A DNA stretch of 42,646 nucleotides, taken from assembly GCA_024305105.1 (NCBI GenBank), contig JAMWZA010000035.1, forward strand, positions 1 through 42,646. The letters are read 5' to 3'. Source of the stretch: Marinoscillum sp. GTDB taxonomy: Bacteria > Bacteroidota > Bacteroidia > Cytophagales > Cyclobacteriaceae. The first letter of the stretch is position 1. The number at the start of each line of letters is the position of its first letter. This document shows, piece after piece, positions 25,426-41,507 of the stretch. A model generated the notes under the pieces. The model did not search any database. It worked only from the letters and a program-made list of their open reading frames with translations, and had not been told where the DNA came from. The translations under genes and the position numbers were made by a program.

Positions 25426-25805
25426 AGAAAGCATTATTACTAATTGCCATTATTAGTTTGTCGGCTATTTGGTCCTGTGATGAGGATGTCTGTATTTGTG
25501 ATTCTGGACCCTTCTATGGTGAGCTTCGGGTTAAAATCACGATCAATGATGAGAATCCTGAGGTATTATTAACCATTATGGAAGGCAATATAGAGTCTCA
25601 GGACACGGTAATTTCAGAATACGTTAATGAGACCAATGTCTATTATGAGCTAGAAGCAGATCGCTATTATTCCGCTGTAGTGGGTTATGATCAAGGCACA
25701 CGACAGATTACGGCCATCGATGGTCGCAGAATGACGCTCAGTGATGATGACTGTGGGTGTGAATATGCCGATAATATTACCCTCAATTTGAGGCTGGCGA
25801 ATTAG
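25422..25805 (+). CDS. Small lipoprotein coupled to the barrel-like protein
   Basis: A 127-residue lipoprotein whose signal peptide ends SAIWSC (lipid Cys at residue 19), followed by DEDVCICDSG, again acidic after the Cys. The rest is mainly beta-type sequence (ELRVKITIND, VYYELEADRYYSAVVGY) with a Cys pair DDCGCEYA. It resembles a small Ig-like or transthyretin-like beta domain, but no family is recognised. ATGA overlap with the upstream gene. The 3' end overlaps the convergent TonB-locus gene by 23 bases. Confidence 0.7.
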   Translation: MKKALLLIAIISLSAIWSCDEDVCICDSGPFYGELRVKITINDENPEVLLTIMEGNIESQDTVISEYVNETNVYYELEADRYYSAVVGYDQGTRQITAIDGRRMTLSDDDCGCEYADNITLNLRLAN

Positions 25806-27903
25806 CTTTTACTGTAAATGTTTTGTGTATTGAAACAGGTGCTCCCGCTGTATTAAACCCTTCGATAGAGAGTTCAAAATCCCCAGTTAGATCCGAAGTA
25901 AAAAACTCTATCTGATCAGTGTTATTTATTGTTAAATCAGGTTTCCAATACAATTGTCTCCTATAATCAGGTGTTTCGTCTGTCGGTGAGTTTTCATGAT
26001 TAGGAAATTCATATTCTCGCAGCGGTTCCAAGCCCTGGTAATCATAGGTGAGACTGTTTTTTCCTGGTTTGAACCCATAGAGATCTCCAGTAAATGTCTG
26101 AAATGAAACCATTCCATCGGCCACAAGCGGACCAAGAAAGAGTCGGCTTTGATTGATATGGATACTTTTGATTTTATATGGACTGAAGGATAATATATCT
26201 TCAGGCGTAGTAGGTAATCCGTCTATTAATATCAAAGGAGGCAGATCTGTAGGCATCATATATTTCAACAACACTTTCAGTTTCGATCGATTCTTATTCT
26301 GTCGGGCTACTACTTCAGGGACAAACTCGATAAAGTGTTCATACATTTTCGGGAAGCGATTGTAATCATCTAGTACATAGCTTTTCGGGAAAGGGTCAAA
26401 CTGGTACGGAAGTATTGGAGATGGAGTAAATGTAATTTGAGGTTTGTAATAGGCGTTTTCTATTTGATTTTTGATGCTTCGTTTGGCTAGATCGGCCGCT
26501 TGAGCCGAGTCAAGGATCACGGCAGGAAAGGACAACCCGTCATAGTTTTCCATAAATGGGTTATCTGTGGCGATTGCGCTAGTCGAATCTACATTCAAGA
26601 CAGTTAGAAATCCCTTCTTATCAGCGAACATTGGATCAATCTGAATAGAGAAAGTCCCGTCTTCCTTGATTTCACCTGAACGTATCTGATAAAGTGTGTC
26701 TATGGTTGAGAAGAGCAACTTTTCTCCTGCAAGAGAAGCTTCCACCTTGCCTGATATGAGTTCTCCACGCGTTTCAGGAAGGAACTTGATGCTGTGCGGC
26801 AATCTTTTTTGTCCAGTCCAGATGAAGTAGGGGTTAGATGAGTTCGTTCGGTTGCGAAGACCCATTTCATGACTCGTAGGTAGACGTGATTCGTTTACCT
26901 TGCTGACAGAGACGGAAAATGATCCGGAGGTATTCATTGGAATTTGGACTTTCGATCGGGTAGGAAAGGTTCCAATGTCTTGTATTTTTGGTCTATCATA
27001 AAAGGTTCCAAATACCAACTGTGCGTTTTCATATGTAGCTAAAAAAGGGCCCATGGTTTTAAAATTATCCTTGCTAACCCGAAACGGTTGATTTGTTGGT
27101 TGACGCTTTTCGAGAATTAATTCTTCACCATCAAAAACCTGAAGCAAACCATCACCATCACCTTTGCTAATGAGTTGAAACTGAAAAAAACCGGAATATT
27201 CCTGAGCTTTGAGGCTGTGTTCAGTAAATCTGTTTGGGAGATTAAAAAACTCAAATTCACCAGCTTCATTTTCTACGATGAGTTGATATTTCTGGTTTTC
27301 GGAGGGAGTTATGTCGAAGATGGCTATACCATTCTTATCAGACTTGAAGTCTGAAATCTTTGTCCCTTCAGTGTTGACAATTCTACCCGAAATGGCGTGA
27401 GGTTTTGAGTTTTGATAAACCTTCGCTTTTACTTCATTTACTCGATTAGGAACCATTCCACCACCTTGTTGAAAAAATTCTATGGACAATCCGTTGGCTT
27501 CAGGTAGCTCATATTTTTCGAAAGGGTTAACAATTGTAACAGGAAGGTTAAAGAATGTTTCAAAGTTCTTCATCCATCTGGTATAAGCCACCAGTTGATA
27601 GCTGCCAGTAGAAACCAGCGTAGGAACAAAAAACTCTCCGGAAGCACGACCATTCGTGATAAGAAGTTTTTGCTGGAATGGTCGTTGGTTATCTTCCCCA
27701 ACAAGTTCTACATAGAGAATTTTGCTCAATGAAGAAGGCAGCCCCGTACCAGCCTGATTGATGTATGCGGAGTAGTAGAGCGTTTCGCCAGAGAGCAGAA
27801 AGCTGCTGTTTGCATGCAGAAATACTTCCTCAGTGACGCGCTCGGATTGAGCTGATAAGGTGAAAGCTATTAGTACAGTGATGATATTTAAAAGTCCTTT
27901 CAT
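25783..27903 (-). CDS. Large exported MG2/plug-like protein of the TonB locus
   Basis: About 706 residues from the ATG at 27903, chosen because ATGA overlaps the DUF4249 stop and gives a signal peptide (MKGLLNIITVLIAFTLSAQ). The N-terminal part (ETLYYSAYINQAG through GSYQLVAYTRWMKNF) resembles the MG2 domain of alpha-2-macroglobulin-like proteins, followed by carboxypeptidase-regulatory-like beta domains. In the last third, LILIDGLPTTPEDILSFSP, KSIHIN and GMVSFQTFTGD resemble a TonB-receptor plug, but no 22-strand barrel follows. Bacteroidota encode many such barrel-less proteins beside TonB receptors; their role is unclear. It is last in the operon and lies downstream of an IS insertion. Confidence 0.78.
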   Translation of the reverse strand: MKGLLNIITVLIAFTLSAQSERVTEEVFLHANSSFLLSGETLYYSAYINQAGTGLPSSLSKILYVELVGEDNQRPFQQKLLITNGRASGEFFVPTLVSTGSYQLVAYTRWMKNFETFFNLPVTIVNPFEKYELPEANGLSIEFFQQGGGMVPNRVNEVKAKVYQNSKPHAISGRIVNTEGTKISDFKSDKNGIAIFDITPSENQKYQLIVENEAGEFEFFNLPNRFTEHSLKAQEYSGFFQFQLISKGDGDGLLQVFDGEELILEKRQPTNQPFRVSKDNFKTMGPFLATYENAQLVFGTFYDRPKIQDIGTFPTRSKVQIPMNTSGSFSVSVSKVNESRLPTSHEMGLRNRTNSSNPYFIWTGQKRLPHSIKFLPETRGELISGKVEASLAGEKLLFSTIDTLYQIRSGEIKEDGTFSIQIDPMFADKKGFLTVLNVDSTSAIATDNPFMENYDGLSFPAVILDSAQAADLAKRSIKNQIENAYYKPQITFTPSPILPYQFDPFPKSYVLDDYNRFPKMYEHFIEFVPEVVARQNKNRSKLKVLLKYMMPTDLPPLILIDGLPTTPEDILSFSPYKIKSIHINQSRLFLGPLVADGMVSFQTFTGDLYGFKPGKNSLTYDYQGLEPLREYEFPNHENSPTDETPDYRRQLYWKPDLTINNTDQIEFFTSDLTGDFELSIEGFNTAGAPVSIHKTFTVKANSPASN

Positions 27904-28840
27904 TCTTCCCAGTATGTTGGAGGTGTGAGGGTAGCATAAAATGAGCAATCAGTACACGATCTGGTATGGATGCTCACCTGATCCAGGAAAGGATCGTACA
28001 AGAAAACATTCGCTCCCTGTTCTACGAAATAGCCAGCACTATCGCTAGTCGTTTCGATGATTTCACTATATGGACAATTGTAAGGATATCGTGGAAAATC
28101 GAACTCTTCAAAATCTCCAGGCTTGAAATAGGATCGTTTCTCTGCTACACCTGCCGCCTCGAAATACCCCAGTATGTTTTGATTTGGGTTATCAATACTT
28201 GTAATATTTCCGATAACCGTACCGCTTTGCTGATCAAATAGTGAGCCACCAGATTGATTGTTTTCATTCAGCTGTTTGTAGAAAAGGTAGGCAGATTCAC
28301 TGATCGCAAATTGTTTTACCAATAAGGCATATCTTGTGCGGAGTTGCTGCTGTTCTTCGGAAATAAACCGAATCGGGAATTCAATTATTTGGTTAGCGGT
28401 GGATGTATTGGTGGTACTGTAAAAGAGTTCATTGGAGAACCTTTCCTGATAGCAAATTCCTAGTGAAGTGTCCATGTATTCTAGCGTCGAATCTTCATTT
28501 ACTCGATATCTGGCAGGATAAGGAGTTGCGATTTTGTAACCTTCCTCCCATTCATACCTGAAGTATTGGTGGTCTGTTTCCTCTGAATCAATAAAAAACT
28601 GAATGCCTCCAACATTTTGTTCCCCTGCTTCATTGGGTTGTTCTGTGTATCTACCATAAATGGTTGCTATTGGAGGAGCTGCCTGGAGTAACTCAGGTTC
28701 TGATTGATATTCCTCACCATTTTCCATGGTGATATGGAGTTGATAGGTACTTCCCACTTTGCCAGCAAATCCCGGCGGAGATTGATAAATACCATCTTCG
28801 GACTGTGAAAATATGGTCTGATCTCCATTCTCATCCTCCA

Positions 28841-28850
28841 CCCATACGTT
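28841..28850. repeat. Target site duplication, copy 1
   Basis: CCCATACGTT immediately outside the left end of the IS element, identical to 30232-30241. Ten bases is within the range produced by IS4-family transposases. Confidence 0.93.
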
Positions 28851-28868
28851 CAATGTCGTTAAGTTAAG
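28851..28868. repeat. IS terminal inverted repeat, left
   Basis: Eighteen bases, the perfect reverse complement of 30214-30231. The transposase stop codon (28870-28872) begins one base inside it. Confidence 0.93.
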
Positions 28869-28869
28869 C

Positions 28870-30156
28870 TCATATCCCTTTATAATTGATGATTTTGGCT
28901 CTTCTTCTTGCAGATGAACTGCTTCGTTCAAAAGATCTGTTGGGACGAATAATTTCTAACCTTGATTGAAGGATTTTGAGCATTTGCTTAACTAATCGAG
29001 GTATTCTATTGGAGTAGAAAATATCTATTAGAAAGTCTTTCATTTTTGCCATTACTTGGGTCTTATTGCCTTGTTTTGGGTGTTTGTTATTTGGTGCTAT
29101 GTTGTCCTTATCAACTCCTTGTGTTCTGATCATTGTTGAGATATTGAGCATAAGTACTCTAGCGTTAAAATCCTGTTTGACAGATTGTGGCGATTTCCCA
29201 CTAAAATGCTCTACATGAAGTGTTTTTTTAAAGGACTTATAACTCTCTTCAACTCCCCACCTCATGCCATATAATTCTCTAATGTCTTGAATATTAAATT
29301 GTTCCCTGTCCGTAAGATTCGTCAACAATATTTCTTTTTCTCCAGAAGGCAAATCAATAGCTACCAATCGTAAGCCATTCAACTGCTTTGGGATGTTGTA
29401 CAACTTCATATTATCACACAACTTATGTGTATTATGACGCATTACCCAATCGACATCATTATGGCCTTCATTCATTAGATCAGTTGCTTTCTTCCATCCA
29501 GTACTAAGCCGGAAACAAAATTGAAAGCCTCTTTGCATTAACAAGCCTGCAAGCCATTGACAAGGGTAACCACGATCAAAAACCAGAATGTCGGATTCAG
29601 CATTTAAAGCTTGTAAGTGTTTGACAGCTAATTCTTTCTCGCAACTTCTTCTCTGTGCTATTTCTGAATCAATAACCAGCTCGTTACATACATCATAAGC
29701 AAATGAACAACGTGCACTTATCAGTTTTTCATATTGATTGGGGATGCTTCCAAATTCTTCTTCAATCTCATCGGTATGAGGGAGATTCAACAGACTTCCA
29801 TCAATTGCCACGACTCGTTTGCTCTTCCATAATTTCTGGTAAGGAGATTTTGTATAAAAATAATCCAGGTGCTCATTAGCTAACTCTATAAAAACTTCGG
29901 GCTTTAGCTTTTTTCTGGATTGAGTAAAGGCACTTTTTGATACACTTTCAAACGCTATTGGAGACCTTGATAGTGATTTGTAAAACCTGTCCAACTCTGT
30001 CTGAACGCTAGGTCTGGTAAATCCCATAAGGTTTATAAGAAGTGCCTTGAAAGTCAGCTTCCTATTTCTGGTAAATGAAGACTTAGTGGTTTTATTTCTC
30101 TCAATAAACCGCTCATCTTCAATGGATTTTAATGTGTTTTTAAAAAGCCCTTCTAT
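28870..30156 (-). CDS. IS4-family transposase (start uncertain)
   Basis: DDE transposase with Asp in VVAIDGSLLNLP, Asp in DILVFDRGYP and the Y-(2)-R-(3)-E-(6)-K signature in YGMRWGVEESYKSFK. The first ATG is at 30027, but the frame is open and coding-like upstream to a TAG at 30187-30189. It includes SSFTRNRKLTFKALL, an N-terminal block usual in this family. No ATG, GTG or TTG occurs there. The best candidate start is ATA at 30154-30156, eight bases after AAAGGAG, giving 428 residues; the ATG was probably lost or a rare start is used. A +1 shift from a short leader ORF (30179-30211) is another possibility. Confidence 0.85.
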   Translation of the reverse strand: MEGLFKNTLKSIEDERFIERNKTTKSSFTRNRKLTFKALLINLMGFTRPSVQTELDRFYKSLSRSPIAFESVSKSAFTQSRKKLKPEVFIELANEHLDYFYTKSPYQKLWKSKRVVAIDGSLLNLPHTDEIEEEFGSIPNQYEKLISARCSFAYDVCNELVIDSEIAQRRSCEKELAVKHLQALNAESDILVFDRGYPCQWLAGLLMQRGFQFCFRLSTGWKKATDLMNEGHNDVDWVMRHNTHKLCDNMKLYNIPKQLNGLRLVAIDLPSGEKEILLTNLTDREQFNIQDIRELYGMRWGVEESYKSFKKTLHVEHFSGKSPQSVKQDFNARVLMLNISTMIRTQGVDKDNIAPNNKHPKQGNKTQVMAKMKDFLIDIFYSNRIPRLVKQMLKILQSRLEIIRPNRSFERSSSSARRRAKIINYKGI

Positions 30157-30213
30157 GAACCGGGCTCCTTTGTTTCTGTTACTCCTCTAAATTAATCAAA
30201 TACAACCACATTT

Positions 30214-30231
30214 CTTAACTTAACGACATTG
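30214..30231. repeat. IS terminal inverted repeat, right
   Basis: CTTAACTTAACGACATTG, the perfect complement of the left repeat. The transposase promoter should lie in or next to this end. Confidence 0.93.
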
Positions 30232-30241
30232 CCCATACGTT
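30232..30241. repeat. Target site duplication, copy 2
   Basis: CCCATACGTT, identical to 28841-28850. It encodes part of the Asn-Val-Trp codons at the break in the DUF4249 gene. Confidence 0.93.
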
Positions 30242-30444
30242 AGCCCCTCGGACGTATTCGTTGAGCACCGTATCTAATGGGTATGTATAGGTGATGGTGA
30301 TCACATGAGGGCCGGATTCGTTAGAAAGTTGTCCTTCTACAACGAGAGTGCGCTCAAAGTTGTCCGGATCAAAATCATACGGCTTCACACAGGATAGAAA
30401 CCCTGTTAGCATCAGTAATATGACTGTATAGGTTGAAAGTCGCA

Positions 30445-33216
30445 TCAGAATTTGAAGTTATAGCTAAGCGTTGGGACAGGATCTCCAAAAACGATCAGTT
30501 GGGAACCCTTGATCTCACCATCTTTTACATCAAAGAAGACAGAAAATGGATTATCTCTTCCGGTAAGGTTGTAAATGGATAGTGACCAAAAAGAATGTGA
30601 GAGTTTTTCGATTTTGTGATTTCCTTCCAGATTTATTCCCAGATCTATTCGGAAATAATCAGGGATCCTAAATGAGTTTCTATCTGAAAAATTAATGTTT
30701 TGAGACCCCATGAAATTGAATCCTGCTACAGGAACAGTGACGGGTCGTCCTGTATTGTAAGTGCTGTTGATCGAAAAACTCAACCGTCTTGTCAGCTTGT
30801 AATTAGCAACCAGATTAATGGTATGCGGCTTGTCGTAGGCTGTAGGGAAGTACTGGCCTTCATTAACCGTTTCTTCTGCCGCAGTGCCATCCAGTTTTAT
30901 GAACGTTCGTGCATAGGCGTAATTTATCCAACCATTTAATCGGCCGGATTTGTTCAAAGAGAATTCTAAACCATAGGACTTGCCAGGCCCCTGAAGTGCC
31001 ACACGTTCAATGTTTTCATTCAGCAGAAAATCAGCTCCAGTTTTGAAATCTACCAGATTATCCATCCACTTGTAATAGCCCTCCACGGAGACTTCTATTG
31101 TATTTCTGAAGAGGTTTTTAAAGTATCCGAGAGAAACCTGATCTGCCGACTGTGGCATGAGGTGATATCCTGATAACCTCCACGTATCTGTGGGGGATAG
31201 CGATGCGGAGTTAGACAAGCTATGAATGTACTGTCTTGTACGGCTGATGCCCGCTTTTACAGAGCTGGTAGAATTTAGCGTATATCTTGCTGAAAATCTC
31301 CATTCAGGACCATGGTAGGTTTTGATTACGGCTCCATTTGTAAAGTTGATTGAATCATTAATCGTCTCTCCATTCTTGGGACTTCCAGAAAGATATTGAT
31401 AGACATCTTTGGGTCCAAGTGCATTGAAGACGACATAACGTAAACCAGCATATAGCTGTAAATCTTCATTCAGATTGTATTGAGAGGAAGCATAAAGAGA
31501 CGTTTCCAATCCTTTTTCATGGCTTAGCTCATCTGACTTGACAATTGATTCGGATGTAAGTGGTGTTTTACTTCCTGGGTTTACATTGTATAGCTTACTG
31601 CTCATGCCTGCATTGAGCGTAAGCACTTCAGAAGGATAGTAGTTGAGGTCAGCAGCTATTGACCCTTCAGTCAAGTCAAAGTCTTGCTCGAATCCATTAG
31701 GGATGGACTCATCATAGGTAATGGCGTAGCTGTAACGAGTAAATGTACTCGACAGGGAGCCAACCAGTGAGGTGGAGAAATCATGATCCCATTTGATGCT
31801 GGAATTGAAGTTTTTGTATCCAAAATTTGAAAAGGAGAATAAAGTATCCGACGATAACCGGAAGTCATCACTACTCATGTAGGTAGAGAATGTGAGGTCA
31901 TTCTTCTCATTAATTTGATGGTCCACTTTAGCAATGATATCGTAGAATGACACTTCGTTTTCACTAAAATTTGCACTCTTGGCTCTTTTTAGAACCCAGT
32001 TTGAATAGGTAGTTCTACCTGAAAGTAGCAGGCTCGTCTTTTCTTTGATTATTGGTATTTCCAAAGTAAGTTTTGAAGTGATTGGGCTGATACCTCCTTC
32101 TCCATGAAACGTGGTTTTATCGGGTTCTTTGCTGCTGATATCGAATACAGAAGAAAGTCTTCCGCCATACTTCGCAGGAATACCACTTTTATAAACTTCC
32201 ATATTGCGAATAGCGTCTGAGTTAAACACAGAAAAGAAACCAAAAAAGTGACTGGTGTTGTAAACAGGCGCTCCACCAAACAGTACCAGATTTTGATCTG
32301 TTTTACCACCACGGACGTTGAATCCTGAAGCTCCTTCGCCCACATTTTGGACACCAGCTTTTGTTGTCGCTATTTTCAAAATATCGTTTTCCCCAAGTAC
32401 GATAGGAACTGTTTTTACTTCTTCTGTACTGATTTTGCTTACACCCATCTGTATGTTGTTAATGTTTTCATCTCGATCTGCCGATACGGTCACTTCTTGA
32501 AGTGCAATGACATCTACATCCATAGAGATATCCAGCTTACCATTGGAAAACAAAATGACATTTCTGAATGTCGTTTTCATTCCGCTAAACTGAATATAGA
32601 TTTTATGCTTGCCATGTGGAAGTGACAGGGAATAGAATCCATCACCATCAGAGGTCGTTCCGATCATTGGGTTTTGTACAAACACAAATGCACCTTCTAT
32701 GGACTCACCAGTTTCTTCATCTGTAACATAGCCAGCAAGTGTTGCCTTACCAGAGTTACTGGTCTGGGTTCTGTTACCAATCTCAAAAACGTAATTCTCC
32801 AAATCGCTTTTGTCACTGCTCTGTGCGGAGTATTCGCGGGAAAAAACCAGTCCTTTGGTAGATACTTCGTCAGAAGCTCGCTCTTTAGCGAACACCTCCA
32901 TGAAGCCCGGCTCTTCGATGATGACTACATTATTGAGCAAAATGAGTTTGTTATCATCTTGATAGTAATTGAGGGTGGTGCCTTCAAATAAATCATCTAA
33001 AGCAGACTCAAGTGTTTGTCCGGTAAGAGGCTTCGTTACTTTCAGGGAGTCAATCCAGCCACGCTCATAATAGAATTGGAGTGTATGTTTTTCAGAGATA
33101 TCCTGAAAGACCTCATCAACTGGCTGATCGACGTATGATTCTGAAATTACGATCCCAGACTGAGCAATTAGGCCTAAAGAAATAGAGAATAATAGAAGAG
33201 TTATCGAGTATTTCAT
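30445..33216 (-). CDS. TonB-dependent receptor with N-terminal STN domain
   Basis: A 923-residue outer-membrane receptor with a signal peptide (residues 1-19). Residues about 22-95 are a secretin/TonB (STN) domain. Residues about 160-245 are a carboxypeptidase-regulatory-like domain (AGYVTDEETGESIEGAFVFV). A plug follows (VRGGKTDQNLVLFGGAPVYN, YKSGIPAKYGGRLSSVFDI), then a C-terminal barrel ending in aromatic LSYNFKF. STN domains in FecA-type receptors signal to an anti-sigma factor, but no FecR or ECF sigma gene is in the window. Start overlaps the upstream stop (ATGA) and stop overlaps the DUF4249 start. The substrate is unknown. Confidence 0.92.
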   Translation of the reverse strand: MKYSITLLLFSISLGLIAQSGIVISESYVDQPVDEVFQDISEKHTLQFYYERGWIDSLKVTKPLTGQTLESALDDLFEGTTLNYYQDDNKLILLNNVVIIEEPGFMEVFAKERASDEVSTKGLVFSREYSAQSSDKSDLENYVFEIGNRTQTSNSGKATLAGYVTDEETGESIEGAFVFVQNPMIGTTSDGDGFYSLSLPHGKHKIYIQFSGMKTTFRNVILFSNGKLDISMDVDVIALQEVTVSADRDENINNIQMGVSKISTEEVKTVPIVLGENDILKIATTKAGVQNVGEGASGFNVRGGKTDQNLVLFGGAPVYNTSHFFGFFSVFNSDAIRNMEVYKSGIPAKYGGRLSSVFDISSKEPDKTTFHGEGGISPITSKLTLEIPIIKEKTSLLLSGRTTYSNWVLKRAKSANFSENEVSFYDIIAKVDHQINEKNDLTFSTYMSSDDFRLSSDTLFSFSNFGYKNFNSSIKWDHDFSTSLVGSLSSTFTRYSYAITYDESIPNGFEQDFDLTEGSIAADLNYYPSEVLTLNAGMSSKLYNVNPGSKTPLTSESIVKSDELSHEKGLETSLYASSQYNLNEDLQLYAGLRYVVFNALGPKDVYQYLSGSPKNGETINDSINFTNGAVIKTYHGPEWRFSARYTLNSTSSVKAGISRTRQYIHSLSNSASLSPTDTWRLSGYHLMPQSADQVSLGYFKNLFRNTIEVSVEGYYKWMDNLVDFKTGADFLLNENIERVALQGPGKSYGLEFSLNKSGRLNGWINYAYARTFIKLDGTAAEETVNEGQYFPTAYDKPHTINLVANYKLTRRLSFSINSTYNTGRPVTVPVAGFNFMGSQNINFSDRNSFRIPDYFRIDLGINLEGNHKIEKLSHSFWSLSIYNLTGRDNPFSVFFDVKDGEIKGSQLIVFGDPVPTLSYNFKF

Positions 33217-33941
33217 TCTGGCTGATCTGTAATTTGCTGGTCTATATAGGACATTAGTTCAATGATATCAGCATCGTTGCCAGGGGAGATTTTAAGATTG
33301 CGCTTCGAGATGAATGATTTAATGTCTGATTTTTTACTTTTAAATACCTTGAGGATAGATTCCTTTCTTTTGATCCGATGATAGGTGTCTTCGTAGTTGA
33401 AATAATAGAAATCGTCTACTTCAAATTCTATGGTTCGCTCTATGACTGTTTTTTTATGCCTCTTGGCAATCAGAGAAACTTTATCACCTCTACTTAAGAT
33501 TTCATAAAATCCAGGCGCTTTATTTCCTACCGACTCATTGATGTATTCGAAAAGACTTCCTCTAAGTTCAAAAGACTTCACCTGAGATTGAATAATTTTG
33601 ATGGCCTGATTGTGATAGATAAAAGAAGTCGGGTGCCGAATGAGTAAAACGTCCTGATCAATATCGTAAGTCATGTAAATGCTATCAAATAATTGTCCGC
33701 GATAGTAAATCTGACCCGGATACCATTCTTCACTAACAAAAAATTGATGTGATGCAGTGGAGATTCTTTTTACTTCCAGGTACTCACCATTCAGAATACC
33801 TGAGTTATTCAGTCCGTTTTTGGTATCATACCACGACCGAGAATCGGCTAAGATCTGGGAGCTTTCCAGCATATACTGAGCCTTTAATGAAAGACTTCCT
33901 AGTAACAATAAGCAAAGAATTAGTAGGTGGTATTTCCGCAT
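33213..33941 (-). CDS. Exported protein at the head of the TonB locus
   Basis: About 242 residues from the ATG at 33941 (MRKYHLLILCLLLLGSLSLKAQ is a clear signal peptide; the upstream ATG at 33962 would bury it). The mature part is beta-type with many Tyr residues (SEEWYPGQIYYRGQLFDSIYMTYD, DDFYYFNYEDTYH), ending in a charged helical tail (SKKSDIKSFISKRNLKISPGND). No domain is recognised with confidence. The stop region overlaps the receptor start, so it is part of the same translationally coupled unit and probably functions with the receptor. Confidence 0.75.
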   Translation of the reverse strand: MRKYHLLILCLLLLGSLSLKAQYMLESSQILADSRSWYDTKNGLNNSGILNGEYLEVKRISTASHQFFVSEEWYPGQIYYRGQLFDSIYMTYDIDQDVLLIRHPTSFIYHNQAIKIIQSQVKSFELRGSLFEYINESVGNKAPGFYEILSRGDKVSLIAKRHKKTVIERTIEFEVDDFYYFNYEDTYHRIKRKESILKVFKSKKSDIKSFISKRNLKISPGNDADIIELMSYIDQQITDQPE

Positions 33942-34080
33942 TGGCGCAAGTATATTGGACAAAAACTTTAATTACCATTTTTTCTACCGTCATCTTAACG
34001 TTTCTAGAAATATTCGATCACAAAAGTCAAGGTATTTTACTATTGGGTAACAATTTGATAGTTTAGCACCCTACTCTTCT

Positions 34081-41335: not shown

Positions 41336-41507
41336 ATAAACAGTACCTTTTCAAAGGTGATAGTTGACACGTGCTGAAATTGACCTTCGCATTCTGAATA
41401 GGTCAAAAATAAGATAATTCTGATCTGAATGTTTATTCTGAGATATCTTGTTCTCTTTTTGTAATATGATCAGTGCTACCTCTAGATTTGCATTCAAAAC
41501 TTGATTG

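Follow-up and report, generated by a model that had tools for sequence, protein, structure and literature searches.

The insertion and the locus that it interrupts

The locus raises the question of what split its DUF4249 gene, and what the split means for the gene, for its neighbors and for the inserted DNA itself. We examined it in a window of 42,646 bases, the whole stretch of DNA that was analyzed. The evidence strongly favors the insertion of an IS4-family DDE-transposase element, with a 10-bp stagger, into the DUF4249 gene of a TonB-receptor locus made up of four overlapping genes (Table 1). Such an event is of an ordinary, known kind; the part worth following is the start codon of the transposase.

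Table 1. Coordinates of the interrupted locus, the inserted element and the short elements of the same genome
Feature	Position	Strand	Description and basis
First locus gene	33213..33962	-	249 aa; no Pfam match at 0.001
TonB-dependent receptor	30445..33216	-	Upstream partner of DUF4249; Plug, CarbopepD_reg_2 (Pfam); syntenic in 5/5 genus members
DUF4249 5' piece	30232..30445	-	71 codons plus one base; runs 5 codons on into the element (76 residues)
Target duplication copy	30232..30241	.	CCCATACGTT; sequence
Terminal inverted repeat	30214..30231	.	Upstream of transposase; 18/18 against other end; TAA inside (30217-30215) ends DUF4249 5' piece
IS4-family insertion element	28851..30231	-	1381 bp; ends, duplication, transposase
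Transposase open frame	28870..30186	-	438 codons before stop; first ATG 30027; PF01609 and NF033592 on 385-aa part
Terminal inverted repeat	28851..28868	.	Beyond transposase stop; 18/18 against other end
Target duplication copy	28841..28850	.	CCCATACGTT; sequence
DUF4249 3' piece	27900..28850	-	316 residues plus stop, one duplication copy included; PF14054 on containing ORF; orthologs
Downstream gene	25783..27903	-	706 aa; weak MG2 similarity; intact
Short element L148	1895-2085		Contig C237 of the window's genome
Short element L149	1914-2104		Contig C240 of the window's genome
Short element L150	1902-2036		Contig C275 of the window's genome

Apart from the ends of the element, the 42,646-base window has no exact inverted pair of 18 bases. 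On both strands of the whole window, CCCATACGTT occurs at two sites only, each abutting one element end. Rejoining the flanks with one duplication copy kept gave a single open frame that spans 385 codons with the stop counted, that is, 384 residues from the ATG at 30445, or 388 residues if read from the preceding stop. The perfect 18-bp ends (18/18), the exact 10-bp duplication on both sides of the element (10/10) and the 385-codon frame after in silico excision that the preliminary description had reported were thus all recovered; the interval of 27900-30445 that it gave is the span of the split DUF4249 gene, inside which the element proper occupies 28851-30231. The target would be codons 69-72 of DUF4249, the third gene of the locus, opened by a staggered cut of 10 bp, and transposition would, judging from the family, have proceeded by cut-and-paste.

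The ORF that holds the 3' piece (27900-28931) matched PF14054 (DUF4249) with E=6e-29 and 101.9 bits against a gathering cut-off of 28.5. Translated from its ATG, the 5' piece yields 76 residues, the last five of which are wholly or partly element-encoded, and ends at the TAA within the terminal repeat; this repeat reads ATG TCG TTA AGT TAA, so that a host frame ends there in this insertion phase. The frame of the 3' piece extends upstream as far as a stop at 28958, with TTG/GTG codons at 28931, 28853, 28841, and 28757 and the first ATG at 28727. As these starts are internal codons only, its product would be without an N-terminal export signal. DUF4249 function is probably lost, given that the 5' piece ends after 76 residues and the 3' piece would not carry this signal; the intact protein was judged by eye to be a lipoprotein, from a cysteine common to the compared frames. 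A sequence search of the PDB with the DUF4249 piece returned one match only, which was insignificant (E=0.13). Elsewhere in the same genome (G000), contig C113 (43343-45756) has two sets of weak matches close together, at 26% to DUF4249 and at 25-27% to the downstream gene, and a distant paralogous locus may exist there.

Conservation of the locus and age of the insertion

The four minus-strand genes overlap at their ends (ATGA at 33216-33213, TGATG at 30447-30443, and ATGA at 27903-27900), and each of the 5 same-genus genomes has all four in this order, with DctQ, DctM, and RlmN nearby in all five; the overlapping four-gene TonB locus first recognized from the window was therefore confirmed. 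A stretch of G023 carries all four locus genes and gave no matches for the DctQ/DctM/RlmN neighbors, and a contig of G012 carries the last three genes, with the receptor cut at the contig end. Searching the genome contigs with the TonB receptor gave 26 distant loci of 25-35% identity. The downstream gene has a frame of 721 codons without internal stop. Its earlier designation as MG2/plug-like proved weak, since PF01835 (MG2) scored 13.9 bits (E=0.072), below the gathering cut-off of 32.8; a PDB sequence search with this gene gave 0 matches. In one genus member, the ortholog of the downstream gene (G003:C112:27593-29755) has one TAG inside the match.

The pairing of receptor and DUF4249 has a described counterpart. 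The relevant sections of PMC11003636 report a TonB transporter subfamily paired with DUF4249 (BT2172/BT2173) and propose that transporter and DUF4249 work jointly. The window locus resembles this pair in that the TonB receptor gene directly precedes the DUF4249 gene in a conserved operon, an adjacency kept in 5/5 same-genus genomes. It differs in having two further conserved genes and an interrupted DUF4249, and the likeness is one of gene arrangement.

The DUF4249 gene is uninterrupted in all 5 same-genus species, with stop-to-stop frames of 389-396 codons and identities of 51-57% (196/384 to 218/383 residues), and the alignment at the insertion point is gap-free in four of them and has one gap in G003. 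Because the gene is uninterrupted in all five, the insertion is taken to be derived. Of the claim that the insertion was recent, the derived state stood, and recency reaches only as far as “after the genus diverged”, as the genomes compared are of other species. The duplication, the ends and the flanking frames are all intact, as would fit a young insertion, within a comparison that covers other species only.

An insertion that is real but old, fixed across the species and tolerated, is the less probable reading of its age, though one to be taken seriously. It would agree with the transposase being without a canonical start codon, and with there being no source copy at hand: the element is present once in its own genome (a draft of 296 contigs), and a DNA search for sister copies, in which at most 6 candidates from each genome were scored, matched 3 of 59 genomes (own included), namely the window itself and pieces of 41 and 61 bases. 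Against great age stand the duplication matching at 10/10 and the ends at 18/18 positions, together with the lack of any acquired stop or frameshift in either DUF4249 piece or in the downstream gene. An assembly artefact, or a split confined to part of the population, is very improbable; the genome is a draft of many contigs, but a mis-join would not yield a single-copy element that lies inside a contig of 42.6 kb, has perfect ends and is flanked by an exact duplication.

Transcription across the interrupted gene

The preliminary description had further suggested a polar effect on the downstream gene, or expression of this gene driven from the element. Between 27500 and 30700, 6 sigma-70-like sites were found against a shuffled mean of 8.6, and the one site on the sense strand of the element is within the shuffled expectation. 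The same region has one terminator-like site against a mean of 2.3, at 28048 in the DUF4249 3' piece, and none inside the element. A pattern that we take to be of the Bacteroidota promoter type matched once in the window, at 41458, and not inside the element, and TANNTTTG had 31 matches, 0 of them inside the element. A promoter or terminator supplied by the element is therefore unsupported by the sigma-70-like, terminator and Bacteroidota-type scans, and neither suggested effect gained promoter or terminator support from within the element. The co-oriented downstream gene may keep its transcription by read-through, whereas its translational coupling to DUF4249 would be broken or dependent on re-initiation.

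It is hardly credible that the element is a switch whose insertion and precise loss toggle DUF4249, and perhaps the downstream gene, since the conserved overlapping locus and the co-orientation of element and genes that would suit it are set against the missing promoter and terminator evidence and a site uninterrupted in 5/5 related species; nor do such elements usually excise precisely.

Placement in the IS4 family

The 385-aa part of the transposase matched PF01609 (E=1.3e-14) and, with 152.6 bits against a cut-off of 115, NCBIfam NF033592 (transpos_IS4_1). The DDE residues D129, D204, and E313 (numbering of the 438-residue frame) and the residues Y306, R309, E313, and K320 of the Y(2)R(3)E(6)K motif are invariant across 11 aligned sequences. 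In the family account of De Palmenaer et al. 2008 (PMC2266710), as far as it is drawn on here, the IS4 family is defined by D(60-110)D(100-150)E plus Y(2)R(3)E(6)K, is described as having a single ORF without frameshift, and has a target duplication of about one helix turn, a length that the exact 10-bp duplication of the window element fits. The IS4-family label first given to the element is borne out by the NF033592 score above cut-off and by the DDE and YREK residues.

Comparison with the IS4Sa and IS4 subgroups in the parts of PMC2266710 that set them out revealed that (i) the DDE/YREK spacings fall in the stated ranges and the 10-bp duplication is the same; (ii) the end sequence CAATGTCGTTAAGTTAAG fits the consensuses of both, CA------T and -AATR--------WTW (IS4Sa / IS4); (iii) the size is near both ranges, the 1381 bp being just below the 1400-1650 bp of the IS4 subgroup; and (iv) unlike the family as described, the window element has a full transposase frame without a canonical start codon. 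The ends and the duplication alone fit IS4Sa and IS4 alike, and the choice of subgroup cannot rest on them. ISPa1635-like IS4 elements of Pseudomonas plasmids are distant: they encode a homologous transposase, 34% identical across 86% of the query. The copy that was read is annotated as starting at a TTG, and its ends fit the end pattern of the window element only if 3-4 mismatches are allowed.

Relatives and short elements

Protein searches gave matches in 17/296 genomes of the phylum and 30/390 genomes of the order, own included. The best complete relative is 38% identical and a split relative 52%. No relatives of the element were found in the viral contigs searched, and each of 209 plasmid records was below 60% identity. 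Among 390 genomes of the order, 30 contained the end pattern CAATGTCRTTWAGTTAAG, and the listed genomes gave 0 control matches. We examined 16 full-length elements with such ends, the window's included, several of which are separate copies in one genome. An exact 10-bp duplication flanks 9 of the 16 (8 of the 15 others), one (L109) has a duplication of 11 bp, and the remaining six (L067, L106, L107, L168, L170, and L171) have none.

The window's genome also holds three short elements with like ends, of 191, 191, and 135 bp, whose duplications match at 10/10, 9/10, and 8/9 positions, respectively. The two 191-bp elements, one of them reversed, are identical at 169 of 177 aligned bases. All that the short elements have in common with the window element is the terminal 18-24 bases, and it is possible that the three are its non-autonomous relatives, served by a common transposase.

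A transposase frame without a canonical start codon

Set beside the single-ORF description of the family, the transposase is one uninterrupted frame of 438 codons, the first 53 of which are conserved. These 53 codons before the ATG at 30027 (30027-30186, minus strand) include no ATG, GTG, or TTG. Over 46 codons, the window differs from its nearest relative, L077, at 9, 6, and 23 sites in codon positions 1, 2, and 3, respectively, with 18 synonymous and 11 non-synonymous codon changes. This third-position excess suggests that the stretch upstream of ATG 30027 is translated. The signal is less clear against L102 (17, 15, 26), L154 (26, 22, 40), and L080 (22, 24, 26). Among pairs of relatives, it is seen between L168 and L078 (17, 16, 26) and not between L080 and L081 (18, 16, 17). 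L077 itself changes frame further down, and in L092 (frame at 1321) a conserved block lies in another phase; the conserved transposase parts of L092 and L077 (1480-2885) being in different phases, either mutation or a programmed change may be at work in these two.

A census of starts among frames above 500 bits covered 13 rows, or 11 once the copies L168, L169, and L151 of a single genome were merged. Seven are from the window's phylum, of which L081 was left out, its frame being cut by the contig end (it has no canonical start either); L110, annotated from ATG in another phylum, was also left out. Before the F-x-R-x-R motif, none of the six phylum frames (window, L051, L078, L080, L154, and the L168 group) has an ATG, GTG, or TTG, with the reservations that L080 has a GTG one codon before the motif and that L169, in the L168 group, has a TTG 41 codons before it. 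Among the four frames from other phyla, starts are present in three (ATG in L106 and L109, TTG in L107); L108, which is annotated from ATA, lacks one. Below 500 bits (13 rows), a canonical codon precedes the motif in five (L086, L087, L088, L090, and L208) and is absent in two (L091 and L093); in the other six, our script found no motif, and these were not counted.

Two mechanisms that the start-less frames might have in common were considered. A single frameshift for all of them was rejected: an ATG ORF in the +1 phase, starting upstream and overlapping the frame, is present in 6 of 13 frames (window, L051, L078, L084, L091, and L108), and a run of at least 7 A or T lies within the overlap in three of those six (L051, L084, and L091). 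A shared AUA start is unsupported beyond a few elements compared by eye, the pattern of ATAGGG near the start being found in 0 of 40 genomes. No common start mechanism is thus established among these frames.

The window copy itself may yield a dead protein or one truncated to begin at ATG 30027, and the copy might be inactive, since its transposase is without a canonical start codon. We tentatively propose, at somewhat less than even confidence, that synthesis of the IS4-family transposases of this phylum with ends CAATGTCRTTWAGTTAAG does not use a canonical start but proceeds either from a non-standard codon or through recoding that begins in a short upstream ORF overlapping the frame. Programmed frame changes are known in other transposases of the broad DDE_Tnp_1 class, according to the sections of PMC3711429 that treat them; the whole word “IS4” does not occur in the first 300,000 of the 475,107 characters of the review PMC5009743.

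Implications

The strain would be a natural DUF4249 knockout beside an intact TonB receptor and could serve to find out whether the receptor depends on its partner. For this IS4-family group of the phylum, manufacture of the transposase without a canonical start, if true, would keep transposition rare and depart from the family's definition as a “single ORF, no frameshift”, and the window element would be a working example and not a dead copy. Even then, it would extend the theme of programmed frame changes treated in those sections of PMC3711429. If initiation is unusual or recoding occurs, annotating the transposases of this group from their first ATG loses about 50 conserved residues.
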